Source of the DNA: Rhodospirillales bacterium
Lineage (GTDB): Bacteria > Pseudomonadota > Alphaproteobacteria > Rhodospirillales > UBA2165
NCBI GenBank assembly: GCA_028823885.1
Contig: JAPPFK010000177.1
Coordinates: 32,183 to 79,111, forward strand
Length of the DNA: 46,929 bases
Direction of reading: 5' to 3'
The notes beneath the pieces are model-generated. The model ran no database searches. It was not told where the DNA came from and was given only the letters and a program-made list of their open reading frames with translations. The translations under genes were made by a program, and so were the position numbers. Positions 8,759-29,677 of this stretch are shown here, one piece after another (the first letter of the stretch is position 1; each line of letters opens with the position of its first letter).

Positions 8759-10546
8759 TTATGAACCGGATTTTGCGGAGCCGGGAATGGGGTCCGGAAT
8801 TGACGAAACGGTGCCCGGTCCGCGCGCAAGTTGCCAAAGAGCCTTGGCCCAATGCCATTGCCACAGCATCGCGGTGCGAGCGTACCGATGACACCAGGCC
8901 CGGCGCGCAGACTGAACCGCTTCACTTCGCCACCATCCCTCGATGTCGTCCCAAATCTCATTCACCTTGGCGGCAGCGGACGGGGCATCACGATGGATGA
9001 GGCCGCAATCGGCCAATGCATCAAGGTAGGGGGCGGCCTGACGGCTCATTGGCCAATCGTCCGGGTTCCAGTAGGCAATCGTCGGAACGTTCGCGGCGAG
9101 AGCTTCCAGGAATGAGGTGCCGGGGTAATCGATAACGGCCAGTTTGCAGCGCAGCATTTCCGGAACCAGCGGGCCTTCCAGGACCTTCAGGTCCGGAAAA
9201 GACCGCTGAAGGTAAGGGGCGTCCAACAGCGTTTTGATTTTTTCGTACGGACGATAGGCAAGCTGTTCCCTGATGGCGCCGTTCAGCCCTCCGACAAACT
9301 CTCTCTTCATCCGCCGGTAGACCAGCCACCGGGAGAGGCTTGGATCTGAGTGGAATCGGTGGCCATAAACCTCCATGCACGTGCCGATGAAAATCAGTTT
9401 TTGGTTTTGGCGTCCATGGGCATTTCTGATCCGGCTCAGATGGGGTGACGGAACAGGGACAAACTTCGCCGCCGCGTCCTCTTGTTCCTTCCAGCCCCAG
9501 GTCAGGAACGCATGCCCTGCATATTCGGAATGAGCAGGCACAGGCGTTGCGATGCTCGTGCCGTAGTGTCCCCCATGCTGCGCGCCGACGACCCGCTCTC
9601 CCCGCTCAAGGGCGATTGCCGTGAGGAAGTTGTTTTCCGTGAGTTGGCTGCCCAGATTGTCGACAAATAAGCGACCCGGCGCAAAACGCCGTCGTGATGC
9701 CCATGCATCCCAGCGGGAAAAATCGGCGCCGTAGCAGGCGGGCCGGGTGGCGCTCACCAACCGCCCGTAAAGCCGCAAAAACGCGTCGGGAAACCTGTCC
9801 TCTATATTTCGGTCGATGGTCTCGGTTTCCGTTTGGTCCGAGAGATGGGTGCTTCGCGGCAAGAGGCTCAACATGACGGAAAAGGGCAGTTTCCAAACAC
9901 GCACGCCATGAGCATGATTAAATGGAAGGTGCCCCAATAGTTGCCGTAGACGACTCCTGGTGACCGTCGGGCAGCCTGTTGGCAAGTCCGGCTCGGGCTT
10001 TTCGCGAATTTCGATCAATTGCCACGATGGGGGGCAAAGTTCGCGCACGATAATTGAAGATACCCAATGGTCGAACAGCCGGCTCCGGTTCATCCGTTGA
10101 TAGAATTCCTCGATTTCGAGGCTCGGCCACGCACGCCTGTCCGGGTGTACAAATACGCTGAACGGCTCGTTGCCGTGACGTTCAACCATGGCGGAAACGT
10201 ACAGGTAACGCCGCCATAACAGCTGAGCGCAGGTCATCAGCCAGACATAAAGCAACGATCGCCAGTAGCGGCTGCCATGGCTGCCGCCGGAACCGAGGTC
10301 GATATCCTGGCCAAGCCGCTCCGCGGTCAGCAATGCGAGTTGCTCGGTGTCATCGCACGCCGATTTCAGCTCCGCCGGCGAGCGGATCGGTTCTTCGAAA
10401 GGCAGCCTGTCCCAGCCGGGAAACCGGTCCTCGGCGCCGACGAAGCACCAAGGCCCAACAACCAAATCGCGATCAAAATCGAAATCCGGCGGAGGTTCAG
10501 TCAGAAAAATCCGGCGAGACGTCAATGCGAGGGGGTCGTCCGTCAT
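8759..10546 (-). CDS. LIC12162-family putative surface-glycan transferase
   Basis: A 595-residue cytoplasmic protein resembling TIGR04331 (LIC12162 family), putative transferases found with nonulosonic-acid and flagellin-glycan genes. Visible marks are RRIFLTEPP near the N-terminus, the region LLYVWLMTCAQLLWRRYLYV, and VVGAQHGGHYGTS with FLTWGWKEQ after it. The second half, with KLAVIDYPGTSFLEALAANV and PTIAYW, resembles the nucleotide-sugar-binding half of GT-B glycosyltransferases. It likely moves an activated nine-carbon sugar onto an acceptor; this is inference. ATG at 10546 overlaps the TGA of the PIG-L fragment (TGATG), so translation is coupled. A TTG three bases upstream is also possible. 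Confidence 0.75.
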   Translation of the reverse strand: MTDDPLALTSRRIFLTEPPPDFDFDRDLVVGPWCFVGAEDRFPGWDRLPFEEPIRSPAELKSACDDTEQLALLTAERLGQDIDLGSGGSHGSRYWRSLLYVWLMTCAQLLWRRYLYVSAMVERHGNEPFSVFVHPDRRAWPSLEIEEFYQRMNRSRLFDHWVSSIIVRELCPPSWQLIEIREKPEPDLPTGCPTVTRSRLRQLLGHLPFNHAHGVRVWKLPFSVMLSLLPRSTHLSDQTETETIDRNIEDRFPDAFLRLYGRLVSATRPACYGADFSRWDAWASRRRFAPGRLFVDNLGSQLTENNFLTAIALERGERVVGAQHGGHYGTSIATPVPAHSEYAGHAFLTWGWKEQEDAAAKFVPVPSPHLSRIRNAHGRQNQKLIFIGTCMEVYGHRFHSDPSLSRWLVYRRMKREFVGGLNGAIREQLAYRPYEKIKTLLDAPYLQRSFPDLKVLEGPLVPEMLRCKLAVIDYPGTSFLEALAANVPTIAYWNPDDWPMSRQAAPYLDALADCGLIHRDAPSAAAKVNEIWDDIEGWWRSEAVQSARRAWCHRYARTAMLWQWHWAKALWQLARGPGTVSSIPDPIPGSAKSGS

Positions 10547-10689
10547 CAAAGCACTTGGCGCCGGGGATCTTCACAGGCCTGATCCATGTCCTCGAATTCT
10601 CCCGCACCGACATGAGGTGCAACAACTCCGCCGCATCCCAATATTTCATCGTCCGGATGCGCGGCGGCCACCGGAACCGAACTCGTCAT
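10546..10689 (-). pseudogene. N-terminal stub of a PIG-L/LmbE deacetylase
   Basis: A 47-residue frame whose first 30 residues, including VAAAHPDDEILGCGGVV, match the metal-binding start of PIG-L deacetylases, which have about 220 residues. Compare the intact homologue at 20564-21244. After that it runs into EFEDMDQACEDPRRQVL and stops. Its ATG overlaps the WbqC stop (ATGA) and its TGA overlaps the next ATG (TGATG). The layout fits an in-frame internal deletion that left both coupled ends. The second metal motif is gone, so it cannot be an active enzyme. Confidence 0.65.
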
Positions 10690-12088: not shown

Positions 12089-12775
12089 TTACGCGCTCGC
12101 CTCCTTCTCCGCGACGATCCGCCACTCCGCATGGACCAGGTTATTCCCGTCGAGCAGGTCCGAACGTTCCATATGTTCGAGAATCCGAATGCGCCATGGC
12201 GCGGGCAATGCGCGTTCCACGTCGTCCCGCCCGTAAAAGGAGATGCCGCCGGCGCCGATCAAACTGCCTCGCGCGATGTTCTCGACAAGACCGTCGGCGC
12301 CGGGCGTGCCGGCGGCGGCGCTGCCGTGTCGTTCGCTGTAGGGATTGAAGAAGAAGAACCCGCCGGAACGGAGCACCCGCGCCACCTCCGCCACGGCTGT
12401 CCTGCCTGCCGCATGGCCGACACACGAGAGCGCGGCGCGATCCAGCGCAAGATCGAAGGAGTCATCATCGAAGGGTAAATCATCGAATGTGGCGACGCGG
12501 AAATCGCCGATGAGTCCGTCTCGGGCAAAACGCTCGCGGGCATACGCTATGGCGGATGGGCTTCCGTCGATACCGCAGACTGCGAAGCCTTCGCGTGCCG
12601 CGAACCAAAGATTGCTCCCTGTTCCGCAGCCCACTTCCAAGATGCGCACATTCTCGCGGGCACGCTCCTTGGGTGCGTAGCGAAACACGAAGGAAACCAC
12701 CGCATCCCACGGATAAAGCTGGCGGTGCCCGGCTGCGTAGCTCGTCTCCCACACCGGATCGACGCGCGCACTCAC
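12089..12775 (-). CDS. Class I SAM-dependent methyltransferase
   Basis: A 228-residue methyltransferase with motif I ILEVGCGTGSNLWFAAREG, then CGIDGSPSAIAYARERF and the DLPFDDDSFDLALDRAAL block typical of Methyltransf_11/25. GTG at 12775 is chosen because it overlaps the stop of the synthase gene (GTGA) and the protein then starts VDPVWETSYAAG. Longer readings run antisense through the synthase and make no sense. A role in O- or N-methylation of the nonulosonic acid is inferred from context only. Confidence 0.8.
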   Translation of the reverse strand: MSARVDPVWETSYAAGHRQLYPWDAVVSFVFRYAPKERARENVRILEVGCGTGSNLWFAAREGFAVCGIDGSPSAIAYARERFARDGLIGDFRVATFDDLPFDDDSFDLALDRAALSCVGHAAGRTAVAEVARVLRSGGFFFFNPYSERHGSAAAGTPGADGLVENIARGSLIGAGGISFYGRDDVERALPAPWRIRILEHMERSDLLDGNNLVHAEWRIVAEKEASA

Positions 12776-13830
12776 CGGACGAAGTCGCTCTCGTCGAATA
12801 CGTGCCCGCGCTCTACGGCGCATTTCAGCGCACGACCGATCAGGGTTGAGACGAGCGCGGGCCGGTAGCCCGTACCCGGCCGGCGAAAGGCCACATCCGC
12901 GCGCTCCAGCTGGTGGCCCGCGGAAAGCCCGCCGGCGGCGACACACGAGAGCCGATAGCTCATGCGCGCCTCCGCCTCTCCGTCGGCGGGTGCGATCGCG
13001 GCCGAGCCCAATCCTTCTTCCACCGCGCGCACGCCCTTGATCAGCGACTCGAGTTCTCGGGGATCCGCCGAGAAGGCATGGTCGGGCCCGGGAAGGTCGT
13101 GTCTGAGCGTGACATGTTTTTCGACCACGGCGGCACCGAGAGCAACGGCAATCAACGCCGCCATCTCGCCCCGCGAATGGTCGCTGAAGCCAATCACGCA
13201 GTCGAATGCCGCGGCGAGCGATTGCATGCGGCGCAGGTTCAACTGATCGACCGGCGTCGGGTAGGCGGAGACGCAATGAAGCAAGACAAGGTTTCGTCCG
13301 CCCGCGCCGCGATAGGCTCCGACTGCCTCGGCGACTTCTTCCTCCGTGGCCATGCCGGTCGACAGGATGGTGGGGCGGCCGCTGCGCGCCATCGCCACGA
13401 TCAGATCCAGATGCCCCAGATAGTCGGAGCCGTTTTTCAGTGCGGGCACGTCGAGCGCCAACAGCTCAGCGACGCCTTCCTCACTGGTCGGCGTGCTCAG
13501 AAACGATATGCCATGCCGATCGCAGGCATCGCGCAGAAAGACAAGATCGTCGCCGGTGATCTCGCACCGCTTGAACAGGTCGAATTGCGATTCGACCACG
13601 TTCTCGCCTTGAGAGAGATAGCTGTAGGTCATCGACCGGTCCGAGAGGAAATCCTCGGCGCGGTAGTTCTGAAACTTGACGGCGTCGGCGCCGGCGGCGG
13701 CGGCGGCGGCAATGGTTTGCTCGGCCAGCGCCCTCTCGCCATTGTGGTTGATGCCGATCTCCGCGATCACATAGCAGGGATGGCCAGGGCCAACAGCGCG
13801 TCCTCCGATTTCTATCGGGGCGATGCTCAC
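12772..13830 (-). CDS. pseI: Pseudaminic/legionaminic acid synthase (NeuB family)
   Basis: A 352-residue NeuB-type synthase. It condenses phosphoenolpyruvate with a six-carbon 2,4-diamino sugar to give a nonulosonic acid. The barrel carries VIAEIGINHNG, DAVKFQNYRAEDFLS, ILSTGMATEEEV and HCVSAYPTP, and VEKHVTL near residue 230. The C-terminal SAF (antifreeze-like) domain includes RPGTGYRPA. The lack of NeuC and the presence of PseB, PseC and PseG point to pseudaminic rather than sialic acid. The start is GTG at 13830, overlapping the preceding small ORF (GTGA). Confidence 0.85.
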   Translation of the reverse strand: MSIAPIEIGGRAVGPGHPCYVIAEIGINHNGERALAEQTIAAAAAAGADAVKFQNYRAEDFLSDRSMTYSYLSQGENVVESQFDLFKRCEITGDDLVFLRDACDRHGISFLSTPTSEEGVAELLALDVPALKNGSDYLGHLDLIVAMARSGRPTILSTGMATEEEVAEAVGAYRGAGGRNLVLLHCVSAYPTPVDQLNLRRMQSLAAAFDCVIGFSDHSRGEMAALIAVALGAAVVEKHVTLRHDLPGPDHAFSADPRELESLIKGVRAVEEGLGSAAIAPADGEAEARMSYRLSCVAAGGLSAGHQLERADVAFRRPGTGYRPALVSTLIGRALKCAVERGHVFDESDFVR

Positions 13831-14021
13831 GCCACACTCCGTTCGGGCGGCAAGGCACGCATGTGAATCGCCTGCGCTACCCGCATCGTGCCGCGTGACC
13901 GGGCGTACGGAAACCGCCGCATCTCCGCCGCATAAACCTCAAGCGCGCGCCGCACGAATTCTTCGGCGTTCCAACGCCTGACCGTGGCGACGAGGTAGGT
14001 CCCCTTTTCTCCTGCGTTCAT
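13827..14021 (-). CDS. Small ORF of unknown function, coupled on both sides
   Basis: A 64-residue frame from ATG at 14021, which overlaps the formyltransferase stop (TGATG), and ending in GTGA with the synthase. It contains TYLVATVRRWNAEEF and then Arg-rich helices (AAEMRRFPYARSRG). The opening faintly recalls the first strand of formyltransferase-like proteins, but this is weak. Because two other small ORFs in this operon are clear stubs of large enzymes, this one may also be an internally deleted gene. A real small protein is equally possible. Confidence 0.4.
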   Translation of the reverse strand: MNAGEKGTYLVATVRRWNAEEFVRRALEVYAAEMRRFPYARSRGTMRVAQAIHMRALPPERSVA

Positions 14022-14713
14022 CAGGAGCATTCGTCCTCATCCGAATTGGGGCGATCGTCGGGCCGCAAGACCAGCGTGAACCGTCTTCCCCGGTGATCGA
14101 AATAGGCCGGGTATCTCTCCGGGTCGGCGACGCGAAGGAGATCGAACTGCTCCGCGATGGTCCGATACGGATTCAGCCGACTGTCGCGAGGTGTCCGTCG
14201 CGGATGGAACGTGGGCTGGCCGCGCTGTTCGGTGCCCGCCGGCCGAGACTCTTCGTCGAGAAAGCGCCGGCAAAGCTCAAGCGCCTTCTCGCCCAGGAGG
14301 TGCCGCCACTCGGCGTATGTCTCGTTGCCGACGAGATTGATTGCGTCGCGATAGATGACAGGCCCTGCATCGACTTCGCCGACGGCCTCGAACAGACAGA
14401 ACGGAATCGTCGTTGCCCCCTCGAGAATCTGCCAAGTCACGGGAGAGAAGCCCCGCCCCTTCGGCAGGGCGCTCGCGTGCACCACAAGGTTGGAATGATT
14501 CCTCTCTAATACCTGACCGGGGACAACGCGGACGCATCCGAGCAGGAAGGCAACGTCACCTTCGGGCAAGTCTTCGGCGCGCCGGACCAGCCGGCCCTCG
14601 TCGCCGTCGGCCCCGATCTCGTCGACCAGGCGCTGGGCATACGGCAGTATCCAGCTGTCGTTGTCCACGAGCACCGATACCCGCCGGGGCTTCTTCCAGC
14701 CGCTATCTGTCAC
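14021..14713 (-). CDS. Formyltransferase-family protein (sugar N-formyltransferase candidate)
   Basis: A 230-residue protein with the formyltransferase core (PF00551): NLVVHASALPKGRGFSPVTW, then QILEGATTIP and EVDAGPVIYRD. The catalytic His and Asp are visible. The usual Asn-x-His is instead Asn-Leu-Val-Val-His. I recall this variant from formyltransferase-like proteins next to neuB genes. Family members use N10-formyl-tetrahydrofolate to formylate an amine. With no PseH visible, it may acylate the 4-amino group of the PseC product. GTG at 14713 is chosen after a GGCGGA and because upstream residues are antisense to pseG. Confidence 0.75.
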   Translation of the reverse strand: MTDSGWKKPRRVSVLVDNDSWILPYAQRLVDEIGADGDEGRLVRRAEDLPEGDVAFLLGCVRVVPGQVLERNHSNLVVHASALPKGRGFSPVTWQILEGATTIPFCLFEAVGEVDAGPVIYRDAINLVGNETYAEWRHLLGEKALELCRRFLDEESRPAGTEQRGQPTFHPRRTPRDSRLNPYRTIAEQFDLLRVADPERYPAYFDHRGRRFTLVLRPDDRPNSDEDECS

Positions 14714-14735
14714 GCGGGATTTCCGCCTGCATTCG

Positions 14736-15788
14736 TCACGCCGGCCTGCCTGACGGCGCGACGCACCGCTCGGGCGAGAGGGCGGGGGCACCGATCGCCT
14801 GCGCCACCCGTCTTGCGCCCAGCCCGTCGACAAGTCGCCGGGCCGCGGAACCGGCAGCCACCAGTGCGTTCCGGTTCGCCACAAATGCGGAAACCGTTTC
14901 ATACAGAATCGGGGAGGATCGAGCATCTTCCAATTCGAGGGGAACAACCGCGCCGGCGCTTGCCGCGATCTCCAGGCCCGGTCTCTGGTTGTCGTTCAGC
15001 GCGATCGTCAAGCTTGGTACGCCCAAGCGGCAGCGTTCCCACATCGAAAGGCCGGCGGCGCCGATCGCCATATCCATGCCGCTCAATAGGGCGGCCATGT
15101 TCGGAACGTTCTCGTGCACGATGACGCCTTCGAGCTGCCGGATTTGCCGACGTCGCGGGTTGGCATCGGTGACGACGACATGGACGTTCAAGGATGCACG
15201 GCAGCCGACTCCGTCAAGCGCCTCCAAAACAGGCATCGTCAGCCCCGAGCCATCCGCCGATCCGAAAAAAACCAGGATGTTTTTCTTCCGTGTTCGAGAC
15301 GCCCTGCGCCGCCTTGTACGGAACTCGCGCCTCAATATCGAATACCTGGGCCCCAAGAGCACGGCGCTTGCCGGCGGCAGGAGGTCTCGATACGCATCGC
15401 TTCCCGGTGCCCGCCCCGCATCGACGAGTATGTCGCAATCGTGACGCCGGTTTGCCAGATCGTCGATCACAAGAATTTTGCTTCCGGATTTCCTGATTTG
15501 CGTCTCCCAGCGGTCATCCAGGCCGTAGTGGTCCACCACCACCCAATCGGATGCTTGCGCCGCCTCACGCGTGGCCTTCGCGTCGCTTCGCCAATCATCG
15601 TTGCAGTCAAGGATGCGAAAAGGAATTTCCGCGCGTGTCAGCATCGAGGTGCCCAACCTGTCGTCTGTCCGGGTTGCGAATTCGACCAGATTGCCCCGAG
15701 CCCCAAGTTCCTGCGCCAGCGCGATGCAGCGTCCCATATGGCCGGCCCCGGTCTTTGCCGAGGCATCGGCCCGAAGCAGAATTTTCAT
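14736..15788 (-). CDS. pseG: UDP-2,4-diacetamido-2,4,6-trideoxy-beta-L-altropyranose hydrolase
   Basis: A 350-residue GT-B-fold hydrolase that removes UDP before the synthase step. The N-terminus has LLRADASAKTGAGHMGRC, with His17 in the position of the catalytic His of Campylobacter PseG. The C-terminal half carries GSADGSGLTMPVLEAL and GAAGLSMWERCRLGVPSLTI for UDP binding. ATG at 15788 overlaps the upstream small ORF (ATGA). Some PseG proteins are fused to a PseH acetyltransferase; this one ends after the hydrolase domain. Confidence 0.88.
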   Translation of the reverse strand: MKILLRADASAKTGAGHMGRCIALAQELGARGNLVEFATRTDDRLGTSMLTRAEIPFRILDCNDDWRSDAKATREAAQASDWVVVDHYGLDDRWETQIRKSGSKILVIDDLANRRHDCDILVDAGRAPGSDAYRDLLPPASAVLLGPRYSILRREFRTRRRRASRTRKKNILVFFGSADGSGLTMPVLEALDGVGCRASLNVHVVVTDANPRRRQIRQLEGVIVHENVPNMAALLSGMDMAIGAAGLSMWERCRLGVPSLTIALNDNQRPGLEIAASAGAVVPLELEDARSSPILYETVSAFVANRNALVAAGSAARRLVDGLGARRVAQAIGAPALSPERCVAPSGRPA

Positions 15789-15924: not shown

Positions 15925-17283
15925 TCAGTCCGCGATTTGCCGCTCGACGCCGGTCAGGACCGCCTCGAGTATTTCTGGCTGCGAAAAGGTCGTCCCCGCG
16001 CCGCGGCCCGCCGCCACCAGGTTGGTCAGGCCATCGATCGCGTTCGGGGTTCGCGCCTGCGTCTGCTGGCCGGCAAGTCGCAGGGGGAAGGCATTGGCGA
16101 TCCATTCATGGCCCATGAACTCGCCGCTTCGGACGTCGTCGACGAGCCCCAGGTCGCCGAGTTCGCCCCTGACCCGCTCCGAGATCTCTTCGATGTCTTT
16201 CGGGTGCTCGCTCCAGAGCGTTTCGACCGTCACCCGCGATCCGTCGGAATCGTTGCCGGGGGCGATGTTGTCGTAGAGCGTCACTCGGTAAGAGACCGCG
16301 TCCTCGTCGTATATCGAGACCCAGTGCAGGTTCGGCGTCACGCCCTTGCTCTTGAACAAATAGTGCAGCAGGAGCACGTGACGAAACGCCGGCGCCGTTC
16401 CCGGAACGCCCGTGCCCAATGTGCGCGTCAGCAACGGCAGGGGAATGGTCCAGACCAAAAGGTCGCATGGCAGGCGTTGCCCATCGGAAAGCGTCACGCC
16501 CGTGATCCGCCCGCTGTCGGTATCAACGGCGTCAATGGTCGTTGCGGCGTGCATGCGGGCGCCGGCATCGGCGAGCCGCCCGGCGAGCATTTCCGGCCAC
16601 ACACCAATACCGCCATCGTGCGGATAGAACTTCTGTATGGGCGAAGGGCCTTCGCGCGTTTTTGTATAGGCGATGCGCTTGTCGTACTCGGGAAGCCTCT
16701 TGAGCCGCTTTGCCGCGCGGGAGGGCACGACGATCAATCTGGAAATGCCGAAACTTTCGTGCGCCGCGGGCGCGAGCTGTTCAAGCGCGCGACCGGCAAG
16801 CTTGCGCATGACCGGCCGGAAAATATGCTCGGTATATGTGGAACCGTATTCCGCCTCGAGCGCCTCGGCCAGATGCAATACATCGTCCTCCGCCTCCTGG
16901 CCGTCGAGTATCTCCACCAGGCCGCGGGCGTATAGATGGGGGTCAAGAACTCTCGCGTCGATGCAGTCGCTGCTACTGTTCAACCGGCCGCCGAATACGT
17001 TTCCCTTCGGAAGGCTGGTCTTGAAGACATGCCACTTGTCTTCGTTCATCCCCTGAAAGAGAACCGAGTCTATTTTCGGGTTTCCCGTCTCGACCGCATA
17101 GTGGATGCCGGTGTCATAGCTTAACCGGCTTCGATACCGGGTTGAGCGCAACAATCCCCCCAGCCGGGTATCTCTTTCGACCAGGTGGACAACGTGCCGA
17201 CCGGCTCGGGCGAGCAGGAGCCCGGCGAACAGGCCCGCAATACCCCCACCGACGACGACGGCATTGTTCGATTGATCGATCAT
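15925..17283 (-). CDS. FAD-dependent oxidoreductase (amine-oxidase / protoporphyrinogen-oxidase-like)
   Basis: A 452-residue flavoprotein. The N-terminal VVVGGGIAGLFAGLLLARAG and the following ERDTRLGGLLRS are the FAD/NAD-binding and substrate-lid signatures of the amino-oxidase superfamily. The C-terminal NLVAAGRGAGTTFSQPEILEA closes the FAD site. Related proteins in glycan clusters include UDP-galactopyranose mutase-like enzymes, but the reaction here is unknown. The start at 17283 lies one base after the fusion gene's stop, so the pair is co-translated. Confidence 0.75.
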   Translation of the reverse strand: MIDQSNNAVVVGGGIAGLFAGLLLARAGRHVVHLVERDTRLGGLLRSTRYRSRLSYDTGIHYAVETGNPKIDSVLFQGMNEDKWHVFKTSLPKGNVFGGRLNSSSDCIDARVLDPHLYARGLVEILDGQEAEDDVLHLAEALEAEYGSTYTEHIFRPVMRKLAGRALEQLAPAAHESFGISRLIVVPSRAAKRLKRLPEYDKRIAYTKTREGPSPIQKFYPHDGGIGVWPEMLAGRLADAGARMHAATTIDAVDTDSGRITGVTLSDGQRLPCDLLVWTIPLPLLTRTLGTGVPGTAPAFRHVLLLHYLFKSKGVTPNLHWVSIYDEDAVSYRVTLYDNIAPGNDSDGSRVTVETLWSEHPKDIEEISERVRGELGDLGLVDDVRSGEFMGHEWIANAFPLRLAGQQTQARTPNAIDGLTNLVAAGRGAGTTFSQPEILEAVLTGVERQIAD

Positions 17284-17284
17284 C

Positions 17285-19327
17285 TTATCGTACCCGAAAT
17301 AACGGTTCGATCGGCGCGCCGGACAATTTTTCGTCCATCGAATCGTTGAAAACGGCGTCCGCGATGGCCGGCAATACCTCGTCGTATGCATCCAACAGAA
17401 TGTCGGCTTCCGACGCGGTGTGCGCCAACGAGATATTGTGGCTGGACTGGATTAATATTCCCCGCCGCAGCATTTCCTGAATAAACAGGGTATATTTCTG
17501 CCATTGGGTGTGCCGTTCGGAGTCCTTGAACGTCAGCAGCGTCCACGGAGCAAGCCCGTTGAGCGAGACCCATTCTCCAAGGCCGTGCGCTTCCAGCCTC
17601 GGCCGGAGCCCGGCCTGCACACGGCCGCCTACGTCCCATAAATGTTCGACCACGTCGTGATCGCGAATTTTTCCGATCGTGGCGAGCGCGGCGGCGAGCC
17701 CAACCGTTTCGCCGCCGGCCGTGAATGAAAAGAAAATCTCTTCCATTAAATGCATGATGTCGGCGCGTCCGACGATCGCGGAAATGGCGTATCCGTTTCC
17801 CATACCCTTGCCGAGAGTGGCGAGATCGGGCGTAACTCCGAAATATTCCTGTGCGCCCCCCAGCGCGTAACGAAACCCCGTGATGATCTCGTCCAGGACG
17901 AACAGCGCGCCATGATCATGGGCAAGGTCACGCACACCTTCGAGATATCCCGGCGCGGGCTCCGTCGCATTCATGGCTTCCATGATGACGCAGGCGAATT
18001 CGCCGGGACGGGACGACAGCAACCGGTCCAGCGCCTCGAGATCGTTGTAGGGAAAGGGATGCGTAAGCTCGCTGACCGCCTTGGGCACGCCGCGGTTGCG
18101 CGAGGTCGATCCGATATACCAGTCCTGCCAGCCGTGATATCCGCATACTGCCACGCGGTCCCGATTCGTATAGGCCCGGGCAAGCCGTACCGCGCCGGCG
18201 GTAGCATCCGATCCGTTTTTCCCGAATCGCGCCATCTCCGCGCATGGAACCACCTCGGCAAGGAGTTCCGCCAGCTCCATCTCCAGCCGCGTGGCCAGTG
18301 ACAGGGTAACGCCCTTGCCGATCCGATCGATGACCGCGCCGTCCACGTCGGGATCGCTATAGCCGAGGATGACCGGCAACAGGCCGTTCACGAAATCGAT
18401 ATATTCGTTGCCGTCCACGTCGACGACCCGGCACCCGTCCCCGCCTTCCAGAAACAGGGGCGCGCATCCCGCCGGGTAGGCGAGGTGGCTTTTGGAGAAG
18501 GTTTGCGATGCCAGGGGGATGACCCTCTCGGCCCGTTCCAGCATGAGGTTCGATTGCTCGTAGCCGCGATGTCCATCCGGCCACTGCCTGCGCGTCTTCT
18601 CGGCTCCCTGGTTGCGCCGAATGCCCATGTTGATGTCGGCCGTATCCGGGGCATCCCGCAACAGCGCAAGAATCTCGAGGTGGGACGGGACTTCCGTACC
18701 GCCGAGGCGGTCCGCCACGTCCCGGGCGAACGCCAGATCCGCCGCTTCGTCTACCGTCCAGCGCAAGCGGTGCAGGCCGGGGATCGGACACCTCACATTG
18801 GCCATGCGAAACAGGTTGCGTCTGTTTCTGATGTAGGGAGTCACATGTTCGCGGTCAGCAGGCGCCCGGGCGTTCTTCGCTGCCGACTGCAAGGCGGACC
18901 GCGAAAACACCTCGCAATCCAGTCCATCCGGCCATGTCGGCGGGTCGATGTTGCTCGCATAGTCAACGCCTGATTCGTCGAATAGCCCTAGCACGAGCTC
19001 GCATATGTGCGGGTCGAGAAAGGGGCAGTCGGCAGTCAGCCGCATGATCACGTCCGCGTCTTCGGCAACCGCCACCCGATGAAAGCGTTCGAGCACGTCA
19101 TCCCGGGGGCCTCGATAGCAGGACGCATGGTTGGCTTCGCACCAGGTCGCAATCCCGTCGTCGGCCGTATTGTCCGATGTGGCGACGACGACGGTGTCGA
19201 GACCGCGAATGCGTCGCGCGGCGGATAGGGTCCAGGCGATCATGGGTCGGCCCCCCAGGTCGGCCATCACCTTTCCCGGCAGGCGCGTGGACTGCATTCT
19301 TGCCTGTATGATCGCGATCTTTTTCAT
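17285..19327 (-). CDS. Bifunctional SpsF/PseF-like cytidylyltransferase and class III aminotransferase
   Basis: A 680-residue two-domain protein. Residues 1 to about 235 are an SpsF-type nucleotidyltransferase: IAIIQARMQSTRLPGKVMAD, MRLTADCPFLDP at 95-106, and TVDEAADLAF at 191-200. Residues from about 250 to 680 are a class III, glutamate-1-semialdehyde-aminomutase-like PLP enzyme with YHGW (397-400), FVLDEIITGF (Asp479) and the PLP lysine in TLGKGMGNGY (Lys507). No separate PseF is intact in the operon, so the first domain is the likely CMP-sugar synthetase. The second may transaminate or isomerise a linked amino sugar or substituent. ATG at 19327 overlaps the upstream stub (ATGA). Confidence 0.8.
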   Translation of the reverse strand: MKKIAIIQARMQSTRLPGKVMADLGGRPMIAWTLSAARRIRGLDTVVVATSDNTADDGIATWCEANHASCYRGPRDDVLERFHRVAVAEDADVIMRLTADCPFLDPHICELVLGLFDESGVDYASNIDPPTWPDGLDCEVFSRSALQSAAKNARAPADREHVTPYIRNRRNLFRMANVRCPIPGLHRLRWTVDEAADLAFARDVADRLGGTEVPSHLEILALLRDAPDTADINMGIRRNQGAEKTRRQWPDGHRGYEQSNLMLERAERVIPLASQTFSKSHLAYPAGCAPLFLEGGDGCRVVDVDGNEYIDFVNGLLPVILGYSDPDVDGAVIDRIGKGVTLSLATRLEMELAELLAEVVPCAEMARFGKNGSDATAGAVRLARAYTNRDRVAVCGYHGWQDWYIGSTSRNRGVPKAVSELTHPFPYNDLEALDRLLSSRPGEFACVIMEAMNATEPAPGYLEGVRDLAHDHGALFVLDEIITGFRYALGGAQEYFGVTPDLATLGKGMGNGYAISAIVGRADIMHLMEEIFFSFTAGGETVGLAAALATIGKIRDHDVVEHLWDVGGRVQAGLRPRLEAHGLGEWVSLNGLAPWTLLTFKDSERHTQWQKYTLFIQEMLRRGILIQSSHNISLAHTASEADILLDAYDEVLPAIADAVFNDSMDEKLSGAPIEPLFRVR

Positions 19328-19527
19328 GTCGTGACGAAGGGTGAGGCCAGCGGGTCATCTTCGCCGCCGTCGGGAAATGCGAGAACGATTTTCTCAAGCA
19401 TGCGGCAGTGCGACAGCTGATCCATCATGATCGCCAATATCGGCTGGCCGTCGATCTCCGCCAGTGACTTGCCGGGGAACCTGGTCGATCCCATACGCGC
19501 CTGGATGATTGCAATCGCCCCCGTCAT
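19324..19527 (-). pseudogene. N-terminal stub of a second SpsF/PseF-like cytidylyltransferase
   Basis: A 67-residue frame starting MTGAIAIIQARMGSTRFPGK, the nucleotide-binding start of SpsF-type enzymes (about 240 residues), and continuing to VLAFPDGGEDDPLASPFVTT before the stop. The metal and sugar sites are missing. Both ends overlap neighbours by ATGA, with the reductase upstream and the fusion gene downstream. It may be the lost stand-alone PseF, or the short copy from a tandem duplication with the first domain of the fusion. Confidence 0.65.
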
Positions 19528-20543
19528 TGGGCCGCAACCGTTTTGAAATCCGGCCACAATGCAGGGTTCACTATTGCCGGGTCGGCCACGGAAAACGATT
19601 GCGGTGAGCGAATGCGCGCTCCCGCGCTTTCCCGAACCCCGTCCAGCACTTTCGCCAACTGGCTGGTTTTCGTTACGCCGATCAGAACCGTATCGATATC
19701 GTCCAGATCCAGCAGAAAGGTCAAAGCCGCCGTCGCAACGTCCAAACCGGCTTCGCCGGCACGGAACCTCAGTTCCGACAGCGTATTTCCGACCGGCCCG
19801 AAATGCGAAGGCAGCGCCGCGGGATCGGCAAAGATCAGGCCTTTCAGGAACGCCGACCGGGCATGGACTTCCACGCCGCGTTGTTTCAGCACCCGCAGAT
19901 GTCCGCTTTCAATCAGGCGCTGGTCCAGAATACTCACCGGCAGCTGGATCAGATCGATCGGAAAACGGTCCAGTATCAATTCGATCTGATCGGCCGAATA
20001 CACCGAGGCTCCGATTTTCCCGGCAACGCCGTCCGCGCGAAGAGTTTCCATCGCCTCGAACAGATGCCCGCCTCCCGCTCCCAGCAGGTTGTCCACCTTG
20101 TGAATCATCAGTCCGTATACAGACCGGACGCGAAGCGCGCTCAGCGAACGGTGGAATTGATCGATCAGCGCATCGGCATTCGCGGGCGTCATGCGATCGT
20201 CCGGAAACGCCGTTGTTTTGGTCACAATCCGAAACCGGTGTGTCGGCGGCAGCGTCCGGCCCAAAATCGTTTCGGCGTTCCCGTAGGCGGGCGCCGTATC
20301 CAGCACATCCATGCCCGATGCCGCGGCTGCCGCGAGAATTTCGGCTATCTGCGGTTCGTCAGGCCGGGTTTCGCGGCAATCGATGGCATAGTCGAGCCCG
20401 AACTGCGCGGTGCCGAGTCCGAGACGGCGCAAATCGCGGGATGGCGCCGCCGGGTTGTTTTCGTGGTACAAGGTCTTGTCGGGTCCGGCTCGGGTGTCGT
20501 CCCGGTTTCCGTGGGCGGCCGCCGCTTCGGTATCTCGAATCAT
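19524..20543 (-). CDS. Aldo/keto reductase
   Basis: A 339-residue AKR barrel. LGLGTAQFGLDYAI opens the fold. GMDVLDTAPAYGNAE gives the Asp and Tyr of the catalytic tetrad, TKTTAF the Lys region, and GLMIHKVD the His. AKRs of this type occur in nonulosonic-acid and deoxysugar clusters and reduce a keto sugar with NADPH; the substrate is not known here. ATG at 20543, 20 bp after the deacetylase stop, is preferred over 20618, which lies inside that gene. The N-terminal 40 residues are low in conservation. Confidence 0.75.
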   Translation of the reverse strand: MIRDTEAAAAHGNRDDTRAGPDKTLYHENNPAAPSRDLRRLGLGTAQFGLDYAIDCRETRPDEPQIAEILAAAAASGMDVLDTAPAYGNAETILGRTLPPTHRFRIVTKTTAFPDDRMTPANADALIDQFHRSLSALRVRSVYGLMIHKVDNLLGAGGGHLFEAMETLRADGVAGKIGASVYSADQIELILDRFPIDLIQLPVSILDQRLIESGHLRVLKQRGVEVHARSAFLKGLIFADPAALPSHFGPVGNTLSELRFRAGEAGLDVATAALTFLLDLDDIDTVLIGVTKTSQLAKVLDGVRESAGARIRSPQSFSVADPAIVNPALWPDFKTVAAQ

Positions 20544-20563
20544 CGTTGCGGTTGCGGTTATTT

Positions 20564-21244
20564 TCAGTTCCAGACGCTGCGCAGGGTCACGAATGCTTCG
20601 GCGGCCGATGCGCCGCATTCGGCGCCCCTTTTTGCCGCCAGCGCCCTGATGCTCTCGCGCGAGCGGGGATGAGGCGGGGCGCCCAGCTCGTTTTCGTAGA
20701 CCTCAAGCGCATTCATCTTGTCCTCCAGCACATCGTCGAGAACGACGAAGTGGTTGGGAAGGAAACTGAACGGCTCGGCGTTCGGCGCCTGGTCGGTGCT
20801 CGATGGCGTCTCGAACGCGAACACGCTGGGAGATTTGCCGCCGGCATGCATTGGGCGCAGCGCGACAAGAACGGCCTGGGCGGTGATCCGGTGATCATGG
20901 TTCAGGTCGCCCGGATGGTGGGTATAAACGACGTCCGCATCGAGGGCCGTCAGTTCACCGGTCAAAAGCGAGGCTATTTCGACCATTGGCACGGTATCGA
21001 AACGCTGATCCGGCAGATCGAATATTCTACGTATCGAACAACCCTCGCGATCCGCCCATTCGGCCGGTTTCGCGGTGCGCTCGGCGTCGCGCGGCGCGGC
21101 GGCGGTTTTCGCCGCTTCACCGTCGGACAAAATGATGATCTCGACCCGGTCGCCGGACCGGGCATGCCGGATCAAGGTCCCTCCGACGCCCAGAACTTCG
21201 TCGTCCGGATGGGCGGCCACGCATACGACGACCTTGCCCGTCAT
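20564..21244 (-). CDS. PIG-L (LmbE-type) N-deacetylase
   Basis: A 226-residue zinc deacetylase with VAAHPDDEVLGVGGTLIRHA (His12, Asp14, Asp15) and THHPGDLNHDHRITAQAV, the two metal motifs of the family. PIG-L enzymes remove N-acetyl groups from sugars. In this operon it could free an amine on a diamino sugar, which the formyltransferase could then refill. It overlaps pseC by ATGA at 21241-21244. A truncated relative sits at 10546-10689. Confidence 0.85.
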   Translation of the reverse strand: MTGKVVVCVAAHPDDEVLGVGGTLIRHARSGDRVEIIILSDGEAAKTAAAPRDAERTAKPAEWADREGCSIRRIFDLPDQRFDTVPMVEIASLLTGELTALDADVVYTHHPGDLNHDHRITAQAVLVALRPMHAGGKSPSVFAFETPSSTDQAPNAEPFSFLPNHFVVLDDVLEDKMNALEVYENELGAPPHPRSRESIRALAAKRGAECGASAAEAFVTLRSVWN

Positions 21245-22434
21245 GCGCGGGGTCCGGAAAAAATTCGGCCCAGCGCGTCGATTACACGGTCCTGATCGGC
21301 ATCGGTCATCGCCGGGAAGAGCGGCAGGGTCAGCGTGTCTTGATAGTAGGCTTCCGCTTCCGGGAAATCACCCGGCTTGAAGCCGCGCGCCCGGTAAACC
21401 GGGTGCAGGTGCACCGGAATATAATGCACCTGACAGCGGATGCCGTGGGCGGCCAGCGCCTCGAACACGTCCCGCCTCGACAGCCCGGCCGGGTTTTCGC
21501 CGATGCGGACGGCATACAGGTGATAGCCGGAAACGGCATCGGGATGGACGGTGAGCGGCGTCACTGGAAGATCCGCAAGATGTGCGTCATAGCGCCGGGC
21601 AAGCGCGTTTCTTCGGTCCACGAAGGTTTGCAGGCGTCTCAACTGACTGACGCCCAAGGCCGCCTGAATGTCCGTCATGCGATAATTGTACCCGACGGCG
21701 ACTTGCCGATACGCCCAGGGGTCTTCCAACGCCTCGCCGATCACATCGGTATCGCGGGTGATGCCGTGAGTGCGGGCGAGGCGCAATCGGCCGGCCAGCC
21801 CGGCATCGTTGGTCGTCACGGCGCCGCCCTCCGCGGTCGTCACGATCTTGACCGGGTGAAAACTGAATGCCGCCATGTCGGAAAATCTACAGCTGCCCAC
21901 CGGCGATCCCGATCGGTCCCGCCCGCCGAGCGCGTGGCAGGCATCTTCGATGATCTTGAAGCCATACCTGTCCCGGAGGCGCGCGATGCGCTCCATGTCG
22001 CACGCTTGCCCGCCGAAATGTACGGGCACGACGACCTGCGGCAGCGCACCCTTCCTGTCGGCGTCTTCCAGCCGTTCGGCAAGGCGATCGGCGGACATGT
22101 TGCCGTCGCGTTGGTCGATGTCGACGAAATCTATTTCGGCGCCGCAGTACAGGCCGCAATTCGCCGAGGCGACAAAGGTGTTCGGCGTCGTCCAAAGCCG
22201 TCGGCCCGGTTCGAGGCCTGCCGCAATTGCCGCGACATGCAGGGCGGCGGTGCCGTTGCAGACCGCCACCGCGTAATCCGCCCCTGCATGTTCGGCGATT
22301 TCCCGTTCGAACTTTTCAACCGCCGGACCCTGGGTCAGCCAGTCCGACCGCAGTACCGCAACCACGGCCTCGATATCGGCCTCGTCGATCGATTGCCGGC
22401 CGTAGGGCAGTACATTTGACGCCTCCCCGCTCAT
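21241..22434 (-). CDS. pseC: UDP-4-amino-4,6-dideoxy-N-acetyl-beta-L-altrosamine transaminase
   Basis: A 397-residue DegT/DnrJ/EryC1 aminotransferase. It has PYGRQSIDEADIEAVVAVL at the start, CNGTAALHVAA, and the PLP aspartate in IIEDACHALGG (Asp164). The PLP lysine is in FSFHPVKIVTTAEGGAVTT (Lys196). PseC converts the PseB product to the 4-amino sugar using glutamate. Directly after pseB with an ATGA overlap, the assignment is safe. Confidence 0.9.
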   Translation of the reverse strand: MSGEASNVLPYGRQSIDEADIEAVVAVLRSDWLTQGPAVEKFEREIAEHAGADYAVAVCNGTAALHVAAIAAGLEPGRRLWTTPNTFVASANCGLYCGAEIDFVDIDQRDGNMSADRLAERLEDADRKGALPQVVVPVHFGGQACDMERIARLRDRYGFKIIEDACHALGGRDRSGSPVGSCRFSDMAAFSFHPVKIVTTAEGGAVTTNDAGLAGRLRLARTHGITRDTDVIGEALEDPWAYRQVAVGYNYRMTDIQAALGVSQLRRLQTFVDRRNALARRYDAHLADLPVTPLTVHPDAVSGYHLYAVRIGENPAGLSRRDVFEALAAHGIRCQVHYIPVHLHPVYRARGFKPGDFPEAEAYYQDTLTLPLFPAMTDADQDRVIDALGRIFSGPRA

Positions 22435-23435
22435 TCAGGGTGCGTCGCCAAATCGCCGAGCAGCCGTGCCATTACCGGCCCATCGATCCAATCGGGGTTC
22501 GTGTCGCTGGCATATCGAAAGCCTTCCGGGACCGGTACTCCCTCCGGGTGAGGTTTCCTTCCTTCCGACCACATATTGAACGGGGGTTCGATAATATAGC
22601 GGTCGCTCAGTTCCAGTGTGGTAAGGGAATCGTCCTCGGTGATCATTACCTCGTGAAGCTTTTCCCCAGGCCTGATTCCGACCTCCTCCCGGCACATATC
22701 CGGGGCCATGCATTCGGCAAGGTCGACAATTCGCATGCTTGGTATTTTCGGCACATAGATTTCGCCGCCCTGCATCATTTCCATGCTGGAGAGGACAAAA
22801 TCGACGGCCTGTTGAAGGGTAATCCAAAAACGGGTCATGCGCTTGTCGGTAATGGGCAGGGAACCGGCTTTTTCCGCTATCAGTTTATTGAAATAGGGTA
22901 TGACGCTTCCGCGGCTGCCGAGAACGTTGCCATAACGAACAACCGAAAAACGCGTCTCCGAACTGCCGCTCAAGTGATTGCCGGCGACAAAAATCTTGTC
23001 GGACGCGAGCTTCGTCGCGCCATACAGATTGACCGGATTGGCGGCCTTGTCCGTGCTCAGCGCAAGCACCCGTTTCACGTTGTTTCCGATGGCTGCGTTA
23101 ACGACGTTTTCGGCGCCATGTACGTTTGTCTGCACGCATTCGAACGGATTGTATTCCGCCGCGGTCACATGTTTCAGGGCGGCCGCGTGAACGACGTAAT
23201 CCACGTCGCGCATCGCCATGGTAAGTCGCTCGGCGTCACGAACGTCGCCAATGAAATACCGCATGCAAGCATACCGGCTTCCGGGAAATATCTGCTGCAT
23301 TTCGTATTGTTTCATTTCGTCCCGGCTGAAGACGATCAGTCGACGAGGCGAATACTGGTCGAGCACCGTCCGGACGAACCGATGTCCGAAAGAACCTGTC
23401 CCACCAGTGACCAGGATGGATGTTCCGTCAAACAT
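22431..23435 (-). CDS. pseB: UDP-N-acetylglucosamine 4,6-dehydratase (inverting)
   Basis: A 334-residue short-chain-dehydrogenase-fold enzyme with TGGTGSFGHRFVRTVL (NADP site, 10-25), VVHAAALKHVTAAEYNPFE and the catalytic STDKAANPVNLYGATK (Asp129, Lys130, Tyr138, Lys142). It performs the first step of the pseudaminic pathway, giving the 4-keto-6-deoxy L-arabino sugar. Most PseB proteins have Pro after LKxV where this has Thr. ATG at 23435 is the start of the whole operon. Confidence 0.9.
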   Translation of the reverse strand: MFDGTSILVTGGTGSFGHRFVRTVLDQYSPRRLIVFSRDEMKQYEMQQIFPGSRYACMRYFIGDVRDAERLTMAMRDVDYVVHAAALKHVTAAEYNPFECVQTNVHGAENVVNAAIGNNVKRVLALSTDKAANPVNLYGATKLASDKIFVAGNHLSGSSETRFSVVRYGNVLGSRGSVIPYFNKLIAEKAGSLPITDKRMTRFWITLQQAVDFVLSSMEMMQGGEIYVPKIPSMRIVDLAECMAPDMCREEVGIRPGEKLHEVMITEDDSLTTLELSDRYIIEPPFNMWSEGRKPHPEGVPVPEGFRYASDTNPDWIDGPVMARLLGDLATHPE

Positions 23436-25159: not shown

Positions 25160-26692
25160 ATGAATACCGCCAACGACGTCTCTGGCCTCAATCCAGAGAT
25201 AGAAACCATCGGCAACTACGTGAACGGTGTCCGCATTCCGGCCACCTCGGATGACGGGCTGAACGTCTACAACCCGGCAACGGGCGAAACGACGTCTCGT
25301 GTAGTTCGCTCTACGCCACAGGATGTAGACGCCGCGGTGCAGGCGGCGAAATCTGCATTTCCCGGATGGTCGGAGACTCCACCACTGAAGCGCGCGCGTT
25401 CAATGACCGCCTTTCTTGGTTTGCTCCAGGGCAACAAGGACCGGTTGGCAGAGGTCATTACGGCGGAACACGGCAAAGTATTCTCGGACGCGCGGGGAGA
25501 AGTGGACCGCGCTATCGAGTCGGTGGAGTTTGCTTGCGGGATTCCTCAGCTACTGAAAGGCGATTTCTCCGATCAGGCGTCTACTGGCATTGACAACTGG
25601 ACACTTCGCCAGCCACTCGGTGTGGTTGCCGGTGTCACGCCGTTCAATTTTCCGGTCATGGTGCCAGCGTGGATGTTCCCGGTGGCAATTGCTTGCGGCA
25701 ATTGCTTCATTCTCAAACCCAGTCCGACCGATCCGACGCCTTCGCTCATCGTTGCTGATCTGATGACCGAAGCGGGGTTCCCTCCTGGGGTGTTCAATGT
25801 CGTCCAGGGCGACAAGGTTGCTGTAAATGCACTTTTGGACCACCCGGACGTTGCAGCACTCTCGTTCGTAGGCTCCACACCGGTCGCGAACGCGATCTAT
25901 GAGCGTGGCGCCGCCAAAGGAAAACGGGTGCAGGCGCTCGGAGGCGCAAAAAATCATCTCGTTGTCATGCCTGATGCCGACCTCGACAAGGCCGTCGATG
26001 GGCTAATCGGTGCCGCCTATGGTTCCGCGGGAGAGCGCTGCATGGCGATCTCGGTTGCGGTGCTGGTGGGCGACGCGGCCGACAAGGTTATTCCTCAACT
26101 GGAGTCTCGCGCGCGCGGGCTCTGCATCGGCTCCGGGATGGATCCCCAAAGCGAAATGGGACCCATCGTCACCGAAAGCGCCCGACGACGGATCTCGGGC
26201 TGCATCGATGATGGTGTTGAAGAGGGGGCGGAACTACTCGTCGACGGCCGGGGATTCTCCCCTGACGACACCAATCGCGGATTTTTCCTTGGGGCCAGCC
26301 TGTTCGACCACGTGACCCCCGAGATGAGGATCTATCGGGAGGAAATATTCGGGCCGGTTCTCTCCTGCGTCCGGGTGGATACCCTCGACGACGCTATCGA
26401 ACTCATCAATGCCCATGAGTATGGCAACGGTGTCAGCTGTTACACGCGCAGCGGTGAAGTCGCCCGGACTTTTGGCCGCCAAATTCAGGTTGGGATGGTT
26501 GGGATCAACGTTCCGATACCTGTCCCGATGGCATGGCACGGATTCGGCGGTTGGAAGCGCAGCTTATTCGGCGACATGCATGCGTATGGTGAAGAGGGCG
26601 TCCGGTTCTACACAAAACAGAAGTCGATCATGCAGCGTTGGCCGGAGGACATGAAAGCAGGAGCCGAGTTCGTCATGCCGGTGGCCAGTTAA
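25160..26692 (+). CDS. mmsA: CoA-acylating methylmalonate/malonate semialdehyde dehydrogenase (DddC-like)
   Basis: A 510-residue aldehyde dehydrogenase of the MmsA type, which oxidises malonate or methylmalonate semialdehyde to acetyl- or propionyl-CoA with NAD and CoA. Family marks are [20 protein letters not shown], the nucleophile in [10 protein letters not shown] (Cys294), and [20 protein letters not shown] near the C-terminus. With the GMC dehydrogenase, CoA-transferase and hydratase that follow, it matches DddC of the acrylate/3-hydroxypropionate route. AAGGACAGGG precedes the ATG. It is the first gene of a long plus-strand operon. Confidence 0.88.
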
Positions 26693-26703
26693 GAGAAGGT
26701 CTG

Positions 26704-28374
26704 ATGAGTCTGGAATTCGACTACATCATTGTCGGCGCGGGAACAGCAGGGTGTCTGCTGGCGAATAGGCTCAGCGCCGAGCCGAATAACCGGGTTTTGC
26801 TCTTGGAGGCCGGCTCAAAGGACAACTACCACTGGATTCATATTCCGGTCGGCTACCTCTACTGTATCGACAACCCCAGGACCGACTGGTGCTTCCGGAC
26901 GGAGAAGGAACCCGGTCTCAACGGTCGGTCTCTTCTTTACCCCCGCGGACGAACACTCGGCGGCTGTTCCAGCATCAACGGCATGATCTATATGCGTGGA
27001 CAAGCTAGGGATTATGATTTCTGGGCCAACGCAACAGGTGAGAATGAGTGGTCATGGACGGCCTGCCTGGAGGACTTCAAGGCCCATGAGGACAACTACC
27101 GGCTCGACGACGCGAACGGCCGGCAAAACGGCAAGCGCCAAAGCGAGGATGGCTTCCACGGGGGTGGCGGCGAATGGCGGATCGAGACCCAGCGGCTCAA
27201 TTGGGAAATTCTCGATGCGTTCTCGGAGGCGGCCAACCAAGCCGGCATCCCGTCGACCGACGATTTCAATAAAGGCGACAATACGGGCACCGGTTATTTC
27301 GAAGTCAACCAACGGAATGGTTGGCGATGGAACACGTCGAAGGCGTTTCTGCGCCAGGCGAAATCCCGATCAAATCTTGCTATTTGGACAAATGCGCAGG
27401 TCGAGAAGCTGGCGATCTCCACCCAGGACGATGGCAGAAAGCGATGCACTTCCGTATCGCTCGTAAAGGACGGCACATCCCAGACCGTTACTTGCAAAAA
27501 GGAGGTCGTTCTCGCCGCCGGTGCAATTGGCAGTCCACAAATCTTGCAGGTTTCCGGCGTCGGCGACGGTGAGCATCTCAATAAAACGGGGATCGAAGTA
27601 AAACACGATCTGCCGGGGGTTGGACGAAACCTTCAAGACCACCTGCAACTCAGGACGATCTACAAGGTAAAGAACGTCCCCACTCTCAATGTGCGGGCCT
27701 CAACCCTGTTGGGTAAAGCCGGAATTGGTCTGGAGTATCTGCTGAAACGAACCGGGCCAATGAGCATGGCGCCATCGCAACTTGGAATATTCACAAGAAG
27801 CGGCCCGTCCCGAGAGTTCTCAAACATTCAGTTTCATGTGCAGCCGTTGAGTCTCAATGCGTTTGGTGAGGATCTGCATTCATTCCCCGCGATTACAGCC
27901 AGCGTATGCAATTTGAACCCGACCAGCCGGGGAACCGTACTGGTGACGTCCCCGGACCCAAAGACGCCGGCCGCTATCGCACCGAACTACTTGGACACCC
28001 AGGAAGACAAAGACGTTGCCGTCGAAGCGATCAAAGTCGTTCGGAACATCATTAAGCAGCCCAGGCTTAAACAGTACGAACCGGAAGAATATTTGCCAGG
28101 TGCGGAATTGCAGTCCGACGAAGATCTCGTGAAGGCTGCCGGGGACATTGGCACCACAATATTTCACCCGGTCGGAACCGCGAAGATGGGGCGAGATGAC
28201 GATCCCGCCGCGGTCGTAGATAGCCGGCTGCGGGTGCGCGGGATCGACGGACTACGAGTCGTGGACGCGAGTGTGATGCCCACCATCACCAGCGGCAATA
28301 CAAACAGCCCAACCTTAATGATCGCTGAAAAAGCGTCTCGTTGGATCATCGAACACGAAATGGGAGGCAACTAG
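26704..28374 (+). CDS. GMC-family FAD-dependent alcohol dehydrogenase (DddA-like)
   Basis: A 556-residue GMC oxidoreductase related to choline dehydrogenase. It has FAD motif VGAGTAGCLLANRLS at the start, GRTLGGCSSINGMIYMRG (GMC signature 1), and the active-site HPVGTAKMG with SGNTNSPTLMIAEKAS (His and Asn) at the end. In the acrylate pathway of Halomonas, DddA oxidises 3-hydroxypropionate to malonate semialdehyde, the substrate for the preceding gene. The substrate here is inferred from context. ATG at 26704 follows AGAGAAGG. The gene starts 12 bp after mmsA and its TAG overlaps the next GTG. Confidence 0.85.
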   Translation: MSLEFDYIIVGAGTAGCLLANRLSAEPNNRVLLLEAGSKDNYHWIHIPVGYLYCIDNPRTDWCFRTEKEPGLNGRSLLYPRGRTLGGCSSINGMIYMRGQARDYDFWANATGENEWSWTACLEDFKAHEDNYRLDDANGRQNGKRQSEDGFHGGGGEWRIETQRLNWEILDAFSEAANQAGIPSTDDFNKGDNTGTGYFEVNQRNGWRWNTSKAFLRQAKSRSNLAIWTNAQVEKLAISTQDDGRKRCTSVSLVKDGTSQTVTCKKEVVLAAGAIGSPQILQVSGVGDGEHLNKTGIEVKHDLPGVGRNLQDHLQLRTIYKVKNVPTLNVRASTLLGKAGIGLEYLLKRTGPMSMAPSQLGIFTRSGPSREFSNIQFHVQPLSLNAFGEDLHSFPAITASVCNLNPTSRGTVLVTSPDPKTPAAIAPNYLDTQEDKDVAVEAIKVVRNIIKQPRLKQYEPEEYLPGAELQSDEDLVKAAGDIGTTIFHPVGTAKMGRDDDPAAVVDSRLRVRGIDGLRVVDASVMPTITSGNTNSPTLMIAEKASRWIIEHEMGGN

Positions 28375-29654: not shown

Positions 29655-29677
29655 ACACACTTTCAGGAGACCCGAAA

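Follow-up and report, generated by a model that had tools for sequence, protein, structure and literature searches.

Stand-alone and fused cytidylyltransferases both take part in the biosynthesis of nonulosonic acids (NulOs). SpsF of Bacillus subtilis belongs to the CMP-legionaminic acid pathway (PMC7439481) and is a stand-alone enzyme without an aminotransferase partner. EpaA, encoded by A. baumannii prophages, joins a CTP_transf_3 domain to an aldo/keto reductase (AKR) in one chain and, together with EpaB, changes C8 of pseudaminic acid, as seen by NMR (PMC12053666); its product is the 8-epimer. In Shewanella, KdnB oxidises C8 of Kdo en route to Kdo8N (PMC5125639), and KdnB/KdnA together with KdsB oxidise a hydroxyl, transaminate and CMP-activate a 3-deoxy-ulosonic acid. 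An 8-amino NulO of the pseudaminic acid type is known from the O-antigen of Flexibacter maritimus (PMC3210612).

The locus described here joins these activities differently. The window, i.e., the whole stretch of 46,929 nucleotides that was analysed from a Rhodospirillales bacterium, contains a single ORF for an SpsF~class III aminotransferase fusion. The gene lies in an operon on the minus strand with the order PseB, PseC, PIG-L, AKR, SpsF stub, fusion, FAD oxidoreductase, PseG, formyltransferase and NeuB; two methyltransferase-like ORFs, a WbqC protein and a LIC12162-family transferase follow on the same strand. The features are:

22431..23435, minus strand: PseB, UDP-GlcNAc 4,6-dehydratase (inverting); TIGR03589, 525 bits vs cut-off 407.75
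21241..22434, minus strand: PseC, UDP-4-keto-6-deoxy-AltNAc aminotransferase; TIGR03588, 525 bits vs cut-off 423.5
20564..21244, minus strand: PIG-L family N-deacetylase (Pfam)
19524..20618, minus strand: AKR, predicted partner oxidoreductase; Aldo_ket_red, E 8.5e-28, and conserved neighbour in homologous loci
19321..19524, minus strand: SpsF stub of 67 codons, likely remnant of a stand-alone SpsF gene, by its identity to stand-alone SpsF
17285..19327, minus strand: SpsF~class III aminotransferase fusion, 680 aa (single ORF, Pfam)
18617..19327, minus strand: SpsF (cytidylyltransferase) domain of the fusion, alphaproteobacterial fused lineage (Pfam CTP_transf_3, tree)
17285..18580, minus strand: class III aminotransferase domain of the fusion, PLP lysine Lys507 (Pfam Aminotran_3, conservation, Foldseek)
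15925..17283, minus strand: FAD-dependent oxidoreductase (Pfam Amino_oxidase/NAD_binding_8)
14736..15788, minus strand: PseG, UDP-sugar hydrolase; TIGR03590, 243.7 bits vs cut-off 153.55
14021..14947, minus strand: formyltransferase, candidate for sugar-amine N-formylation; Pfam Formyl_trans_N, 50% identity to the neighbour in locus L095; true start probably nearer 14760
12772..13830, minus strand: NeuB-family nonulosonate synthase; Pfam NeuB, E 8.6e-77
8759..10549, minus strand: LIC12162-family transferase, candidate glycosyltransferase of the cluster; TIGR04331, 337 bits vs cut-off 225

The fusion ORF starts with ATG and has no internal stop, whereas the plus strand of the same interval has 10 in-frame stops; the initial annotation, which had described a two-domain chain of 680 residues here, was exact in its coordinates, and the gene itself reads on the minus strand. 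Residues 1 to ~230 form the SpsF-type cytidylyltransferase and residues ~262-680 the class III PLP aminotransferase, with a linker at ~231-260. Pfam places CTP_transf_3 (PF02348) at residues 4-174 (E 1.3e-28, 100.8 bits vs a gathering cut-off of 22.6) and Aminotran_3 (PF00202) at residues 290-631 (E 1.1e-43, 149.9 bits vs 30.5). The nucleotide-binding signature of the SpsF domain, IQARMQSTRLPGK, holds the RxxSxRLPGK loop, in which Q8, R10, S13, R15 and K19 are invariant among 34 fused homologues, as are Lys507, Asp479, Glu450, His398 and Asn371 of the PLP site, so that the key residues noticed earlier in both domains are borne out by conservation. Score and nucleotide loop together assign the N-terminal domain to the SpsF-type cytidylyltransferases, the same family as B. 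subtilis SpsF, and score together with the conserved PLP lysine and aspartate assign the C-terminal domain to the class III PLP aminotransferases. The SpsF domain is predicted to be a CTP-dependent activator of a NulO. An AlphaFold2 model built from the 34 fused homologues has a mean pLDDT of 89.9 and a pTM of 0.87; its weak part, with blocks at pLDDT 59-77, is residues 231-260, where the initial annotation had marked a linker (235-260) and where both length and sequence vary between the homologues. The ORF length, the double homology and the conservation lie far beyond chance.

Like EpaA, the fusion links a CTP_transf_3 domain to a predicted modifier of the NulO backbone and would work with an oxidoreductase; unlike in EpaA, the AKR is a separate upstream gene, and the fusion carries a class III PLP aminotransferase with a predicted amine product. 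The set of activities matches that of KdnB/KdnA and KdsB, but these are unfused and act on Kdo, and KdnB is an iron-type alcohol dehydrogenase. KdnA belongs to a different aminotransferase class.

The fusion is present as one copy in its own genome, and full-length fused homologues occur in relatives as well as in Alphaproteobacteria, Acidobacteriota, Chloroflexota, Omnitrophota, Aquificota, Nitrospirota, Bacteroidota and others, including the isolates Paramagnetospirillum marisnigri, Terasakiella and Colwellia. The concern raised initially, that the fusion might exist only in this assembly through an erroneous join of two genes, is thereby removed. We fetched 89 loci, which are the best matches out of a larger set and not a random sample: 36 carry the fused ORF, 37 carry two genes, mostly adjacent, and in 16 the aminotransferase has no SpsF within the fetched stretch. 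The pair nearly always sits within a nonulosonic-acid cluster. On strongly supported branches of the aminotransferase tree, the fused state changed at least six times when split and stand-alone loci were taken together, and five times in the most parsimonious count for fused versus split loci alone. In the order of Bacteroidetes genome G101, the aminotransferase was found in 3 of 46 genomes. Because SpsF and the aminotransferase are mostly fused or neighbouring genes, lie in NulO clusters and changed their fused state repeatedly, the view that both activities serve one pathway, first suggested by the fusion itself, is well supported.

Among phage records, we found at most partial matches to the fusion and no AKR match; two phage-labelled entries, MT837580.1 and OQ572405.1, match the aminotransferase domain at 39% and 34% and are possibly bacterial DNA. 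Two SpsF~aminotransferase fusions come from regions in which no PseB/PseC pair was recognised, one with a UDP-GlcNAc 2-epimerase gene (L145) and one with two Gfo/Idh/MocA genes (L144), and judging from this context the module may also serve other types of nonulosonic acid.

The usual order in the fetched loci is PseB-PseC-oxidoreductase-SpsF-aminotransferase-PseG-(acetyl/formyltransferase)-NeuB. Where 3.5 kb or more of upstream sequence was available (68 loci), an NAD(P) oxidoreductase lies near the SpsF/aminotransferase pair in 66, usually directly adjoining it (62 by automatic call; L020, L023, L030 and L036 added by hand). In L135 and L141 the aminotransferase has no obvious partner of this kind. 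These oxidoreductases belong to unrelated families, namely AKR (~45 loci), Gfo/Idh/MocA (~16) and SDR (five), and such a near-constant neighbour drawn from three unrelated families is new here. In an Acidobacteriaceae MAG (L036:6957-10043), a single ORF of 1028 aa comprises Gfo/Idh/MocA, CTP_transf_3 and Aminotran_3. For comparison, PseC loci from the window's order were drawn from 100 relatives: an AKR or strong Gfo match was present in 9 of 11 loci with the aminotransferase vs none of the 14 NulO clusters that lack it (Fisher p 2.7e-5), a comparison counted once the pattern had already been seen and with queries from aminotransferase-bearing loci, so that distant oxidoreductases elsewhere could be undercounted. 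Both sets contain SpsF, which would fit a general CMP-NulO synthetase. The oxidoreductase is tied specifically and recurrently to the aminotransferase-bearing NulO clusters.

On balance, we lean towards reading the fusion as a bifunctional CMP-nonulosonic-acid enzyme in a module that would oxidise, aminate and CMP-activate its substrate, giving a triamino NulO, most likely the 8-amino form. By homology to the established pathway, PseB, PseC, an N-acyl or formyl transferase, PseG and the NeuB-family synthase would supply a 5,7-diamino-9-deoxy nonulosonic acid. The only free hydroxyls of this sugar are O4 and O8, and the hexose C5 hydroxyl becomes a free O8 only after PseG and NeuB. The adjacent oxidoreductase (in this operon the AKR) would convert a free hydroxyl to a ketone, with C8 as the most likely position; the ketone would then be transaminated by the class III PLP domain with an amino-acid donor, after which the fused SpsF domain would link CMP to the triamino sugar, ready for transfer onto a surface glycan. 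The standard route from a sugar hydroxyl to an amine pairs a dehydrogenase and a PLP aminotransferase, as in KdnB/KdnA, WlbA/WlbE and GnnA/GnnB; AKRs usually reduce, which counts against the oxidation step. Amination at C8 followed by CMP activation is the best reading because O8 is free and EpaA/EpaB, KdnB and the F. maritimus sugar provide precedents; the literature searched for a NulO with an 8-amino group and an aminotransferase contained nothing relevant. The gene set also occurs in the Legionella pneumophila Sg6/Sg12 O-antigen loci (PMC3694923), and for the non-1 serogroups, among which Sg6/Sg12 are perhaps not told apart, legionaminic-type sugars without an 8-amino group have been reported. 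These reports are the main counter-evidence to the 8-amino reading.

The Legionella case, in which the same genes accompany a reported stereoisomer without an extra amine, would instead fit a PLP domain that epimerises an amine-bearing carbon (C5/C7, or C4 of the UDP-sugar) while the oxidoreductase epimerises another centre. Class III PLP epimerases (GenB2-type 6'-epimerase/aminotransferase, isoleucine 2-epimerase) do match by sequence, but far more weakly than GSAM, FumI or PctV, and an epimerase would not need the dedicated dehydrogenase that is specific to aminotransferase clusters and fused in L036; we regard this explanation as unlikely. Somewhat less likely still is the same module with the new amine at C4: O4 is the sole other free hydroxyl and the genomic evidence fits both positions equally, but the precedents just named all concern C8, and we know of no natural 4-amino NulO. 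The differing acyl, formyl and amidino transferases of the clusters might also suggest that the aminotransferase makes or modifies the N-acyl substituent or another small donor, and not the sugar backbone. This we hold to be improbable, as the aminotransferase stays with SpsF while acyl-modifying genes vary, and its fusion to the CMP-transferase, in one case together with a sugar-type dehydrogenase, suggests the sugar as the target.

The C-terminal domain had been called GSA-aminomutase-like, which holds for its fold and not for its family. The best PDB fold matches in Foldseek are GSAM enzymes, closely followed by FumI (aminopentol aminotransferase, TM 0.90-0.92) and PctV, and the domain shares with HemL and FumI the fold type I class III PLP architecture at ~30% identity. 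The FumI match also speaks for the amination reading. It reaches 241.5 bits vs a cut-off of 527 for HemL/GSAM TIGR00713 (homologues 244-288 bits) and 408 bits vs 486 for NF004856, and stand-alone homologues also stay below both cut-offs. In alignments to HemL structures (5i92 and others), NSPV..RAF is replaced by SQTFSKS, and FEAGF by a gap and HN; the substrate Arg in NSPVRAF and the Glu in FEAGF are sites that we take to be GSAM-specific. HemL acts in a haem context and FumI in a fumonisin context, whereas the domain studied here occurs in a nonulosonic-acid context. It is very improbable that chance or an assembly error has joined a true glutamate-1-semialdehyde aminomutase to SpsF: the top HMM and PDB matches do carry the GSAM name, but the missed cut-offs, the lost GSAM sites and the fusion's recurrence in independent genomes, including isolates, speak against it. 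The family is easily misannotated as haem-pathway aminomutases.

Together, fusion and oxidoreductase most probably represent a new variant of CMP-nonulosonate biosynthesis. More tentatively, an uncharacterised, widespread module of oxidoreductase, CMP-transferase and class III aminotransferase could make CMP-activated 8-amino NulOs in many phyla, and NulOs with extra amino groups might be common but overlooked in surface and flagellar glycans. The module would then supply genes for 8-amino NulO biosynthesis, for which, in the literature searched, we found none although the sugar has been described chemically in one fish pathogen. It would also predict which bacteria bear extra amino groups on sialic-acid-like sugars, groups that alter surface charge and recognition. 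The L036 triple fusion states the logic of the module in one chain and, with the recurrent fusions, offers a direct way to test in vitro in which order the steps run.

The stub of a second SpsF gene, suspected directly upstream of the fusion, is real. It shares bases with both flanking genes, its ATG with the AKR stop (AATGACG) and its stop with the fusion ATG (ACATGA). Its identity to stand-alone SpsF is 64% for L043 and 59% for L095, against 45% for the fused domain; a duplicate of the fused domain was dropped as an explanation, the stub being nearer to the stand-alone genes. A frameshift splitting the stub from the fusion was also discarded, as the stub frame has no SpsF homology beyond its stop. 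The window's aminotransferase domain is likewise closest to those of L043 (67%) and L095 (SH-aLRT 95-96), neither of them fused, while the fused SpsF domain falls in an all-fused, mainly alphaproteobacterial clade (18 rows, SH-aLRT 99) with a best match of 57% to L009. From these affinities, the stub is likely the 5′ remnant of a displaced resident SpsF, and the window's fusion is likely a chimera in which a fused-type SpsF domain recombined onto the resident aminotransferase gene. In AU tests, placing SpsF with L043/L095 gave p 0.32 and placing the aminotransferase (GSAM) domain with the fused clade p 0.071. We saw no foreign GC content in the SpsF part (63.4% vs 60.6%; neighbours 55-65%).

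As first proposed, no CMP-sugar synthetase besides the fusion was seen in the operon; elsewhere in the genome there are two more distant relatives, one of which is a KdsB. PseB, PseC and PseG exceed the cut-offs of their pseudaminic acid families, but the synthase does not, with 252.4 bits vs 340.25 for PseI (TIGR03586), and it is also below the cut-off for NeuB_NnaB (319.7 vs 399.65). As the synthase resembles N-acetylneuraminate synthase more than PseI by score, the sugar of this cluster may not be pseudaminic acid. No PseH-like acetyltransferase was recognised in the operon; the formyltransferase may act in its stead and N-formylate the precursor's 4-amine. A gap of 1 nt separates the fusion stop from the gene for the FAD oxidoreductase, which has homologues in only two of the fetched loci (L065 and L048). 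Unrelated to the sugar operon, a run of ORFs on the plus strand of the window (25160-30523) resembles, by translation, aldehyde dehydrogenase, GMC oxidoreductase, CoA-transferase and enoyl-CoA hydratase.
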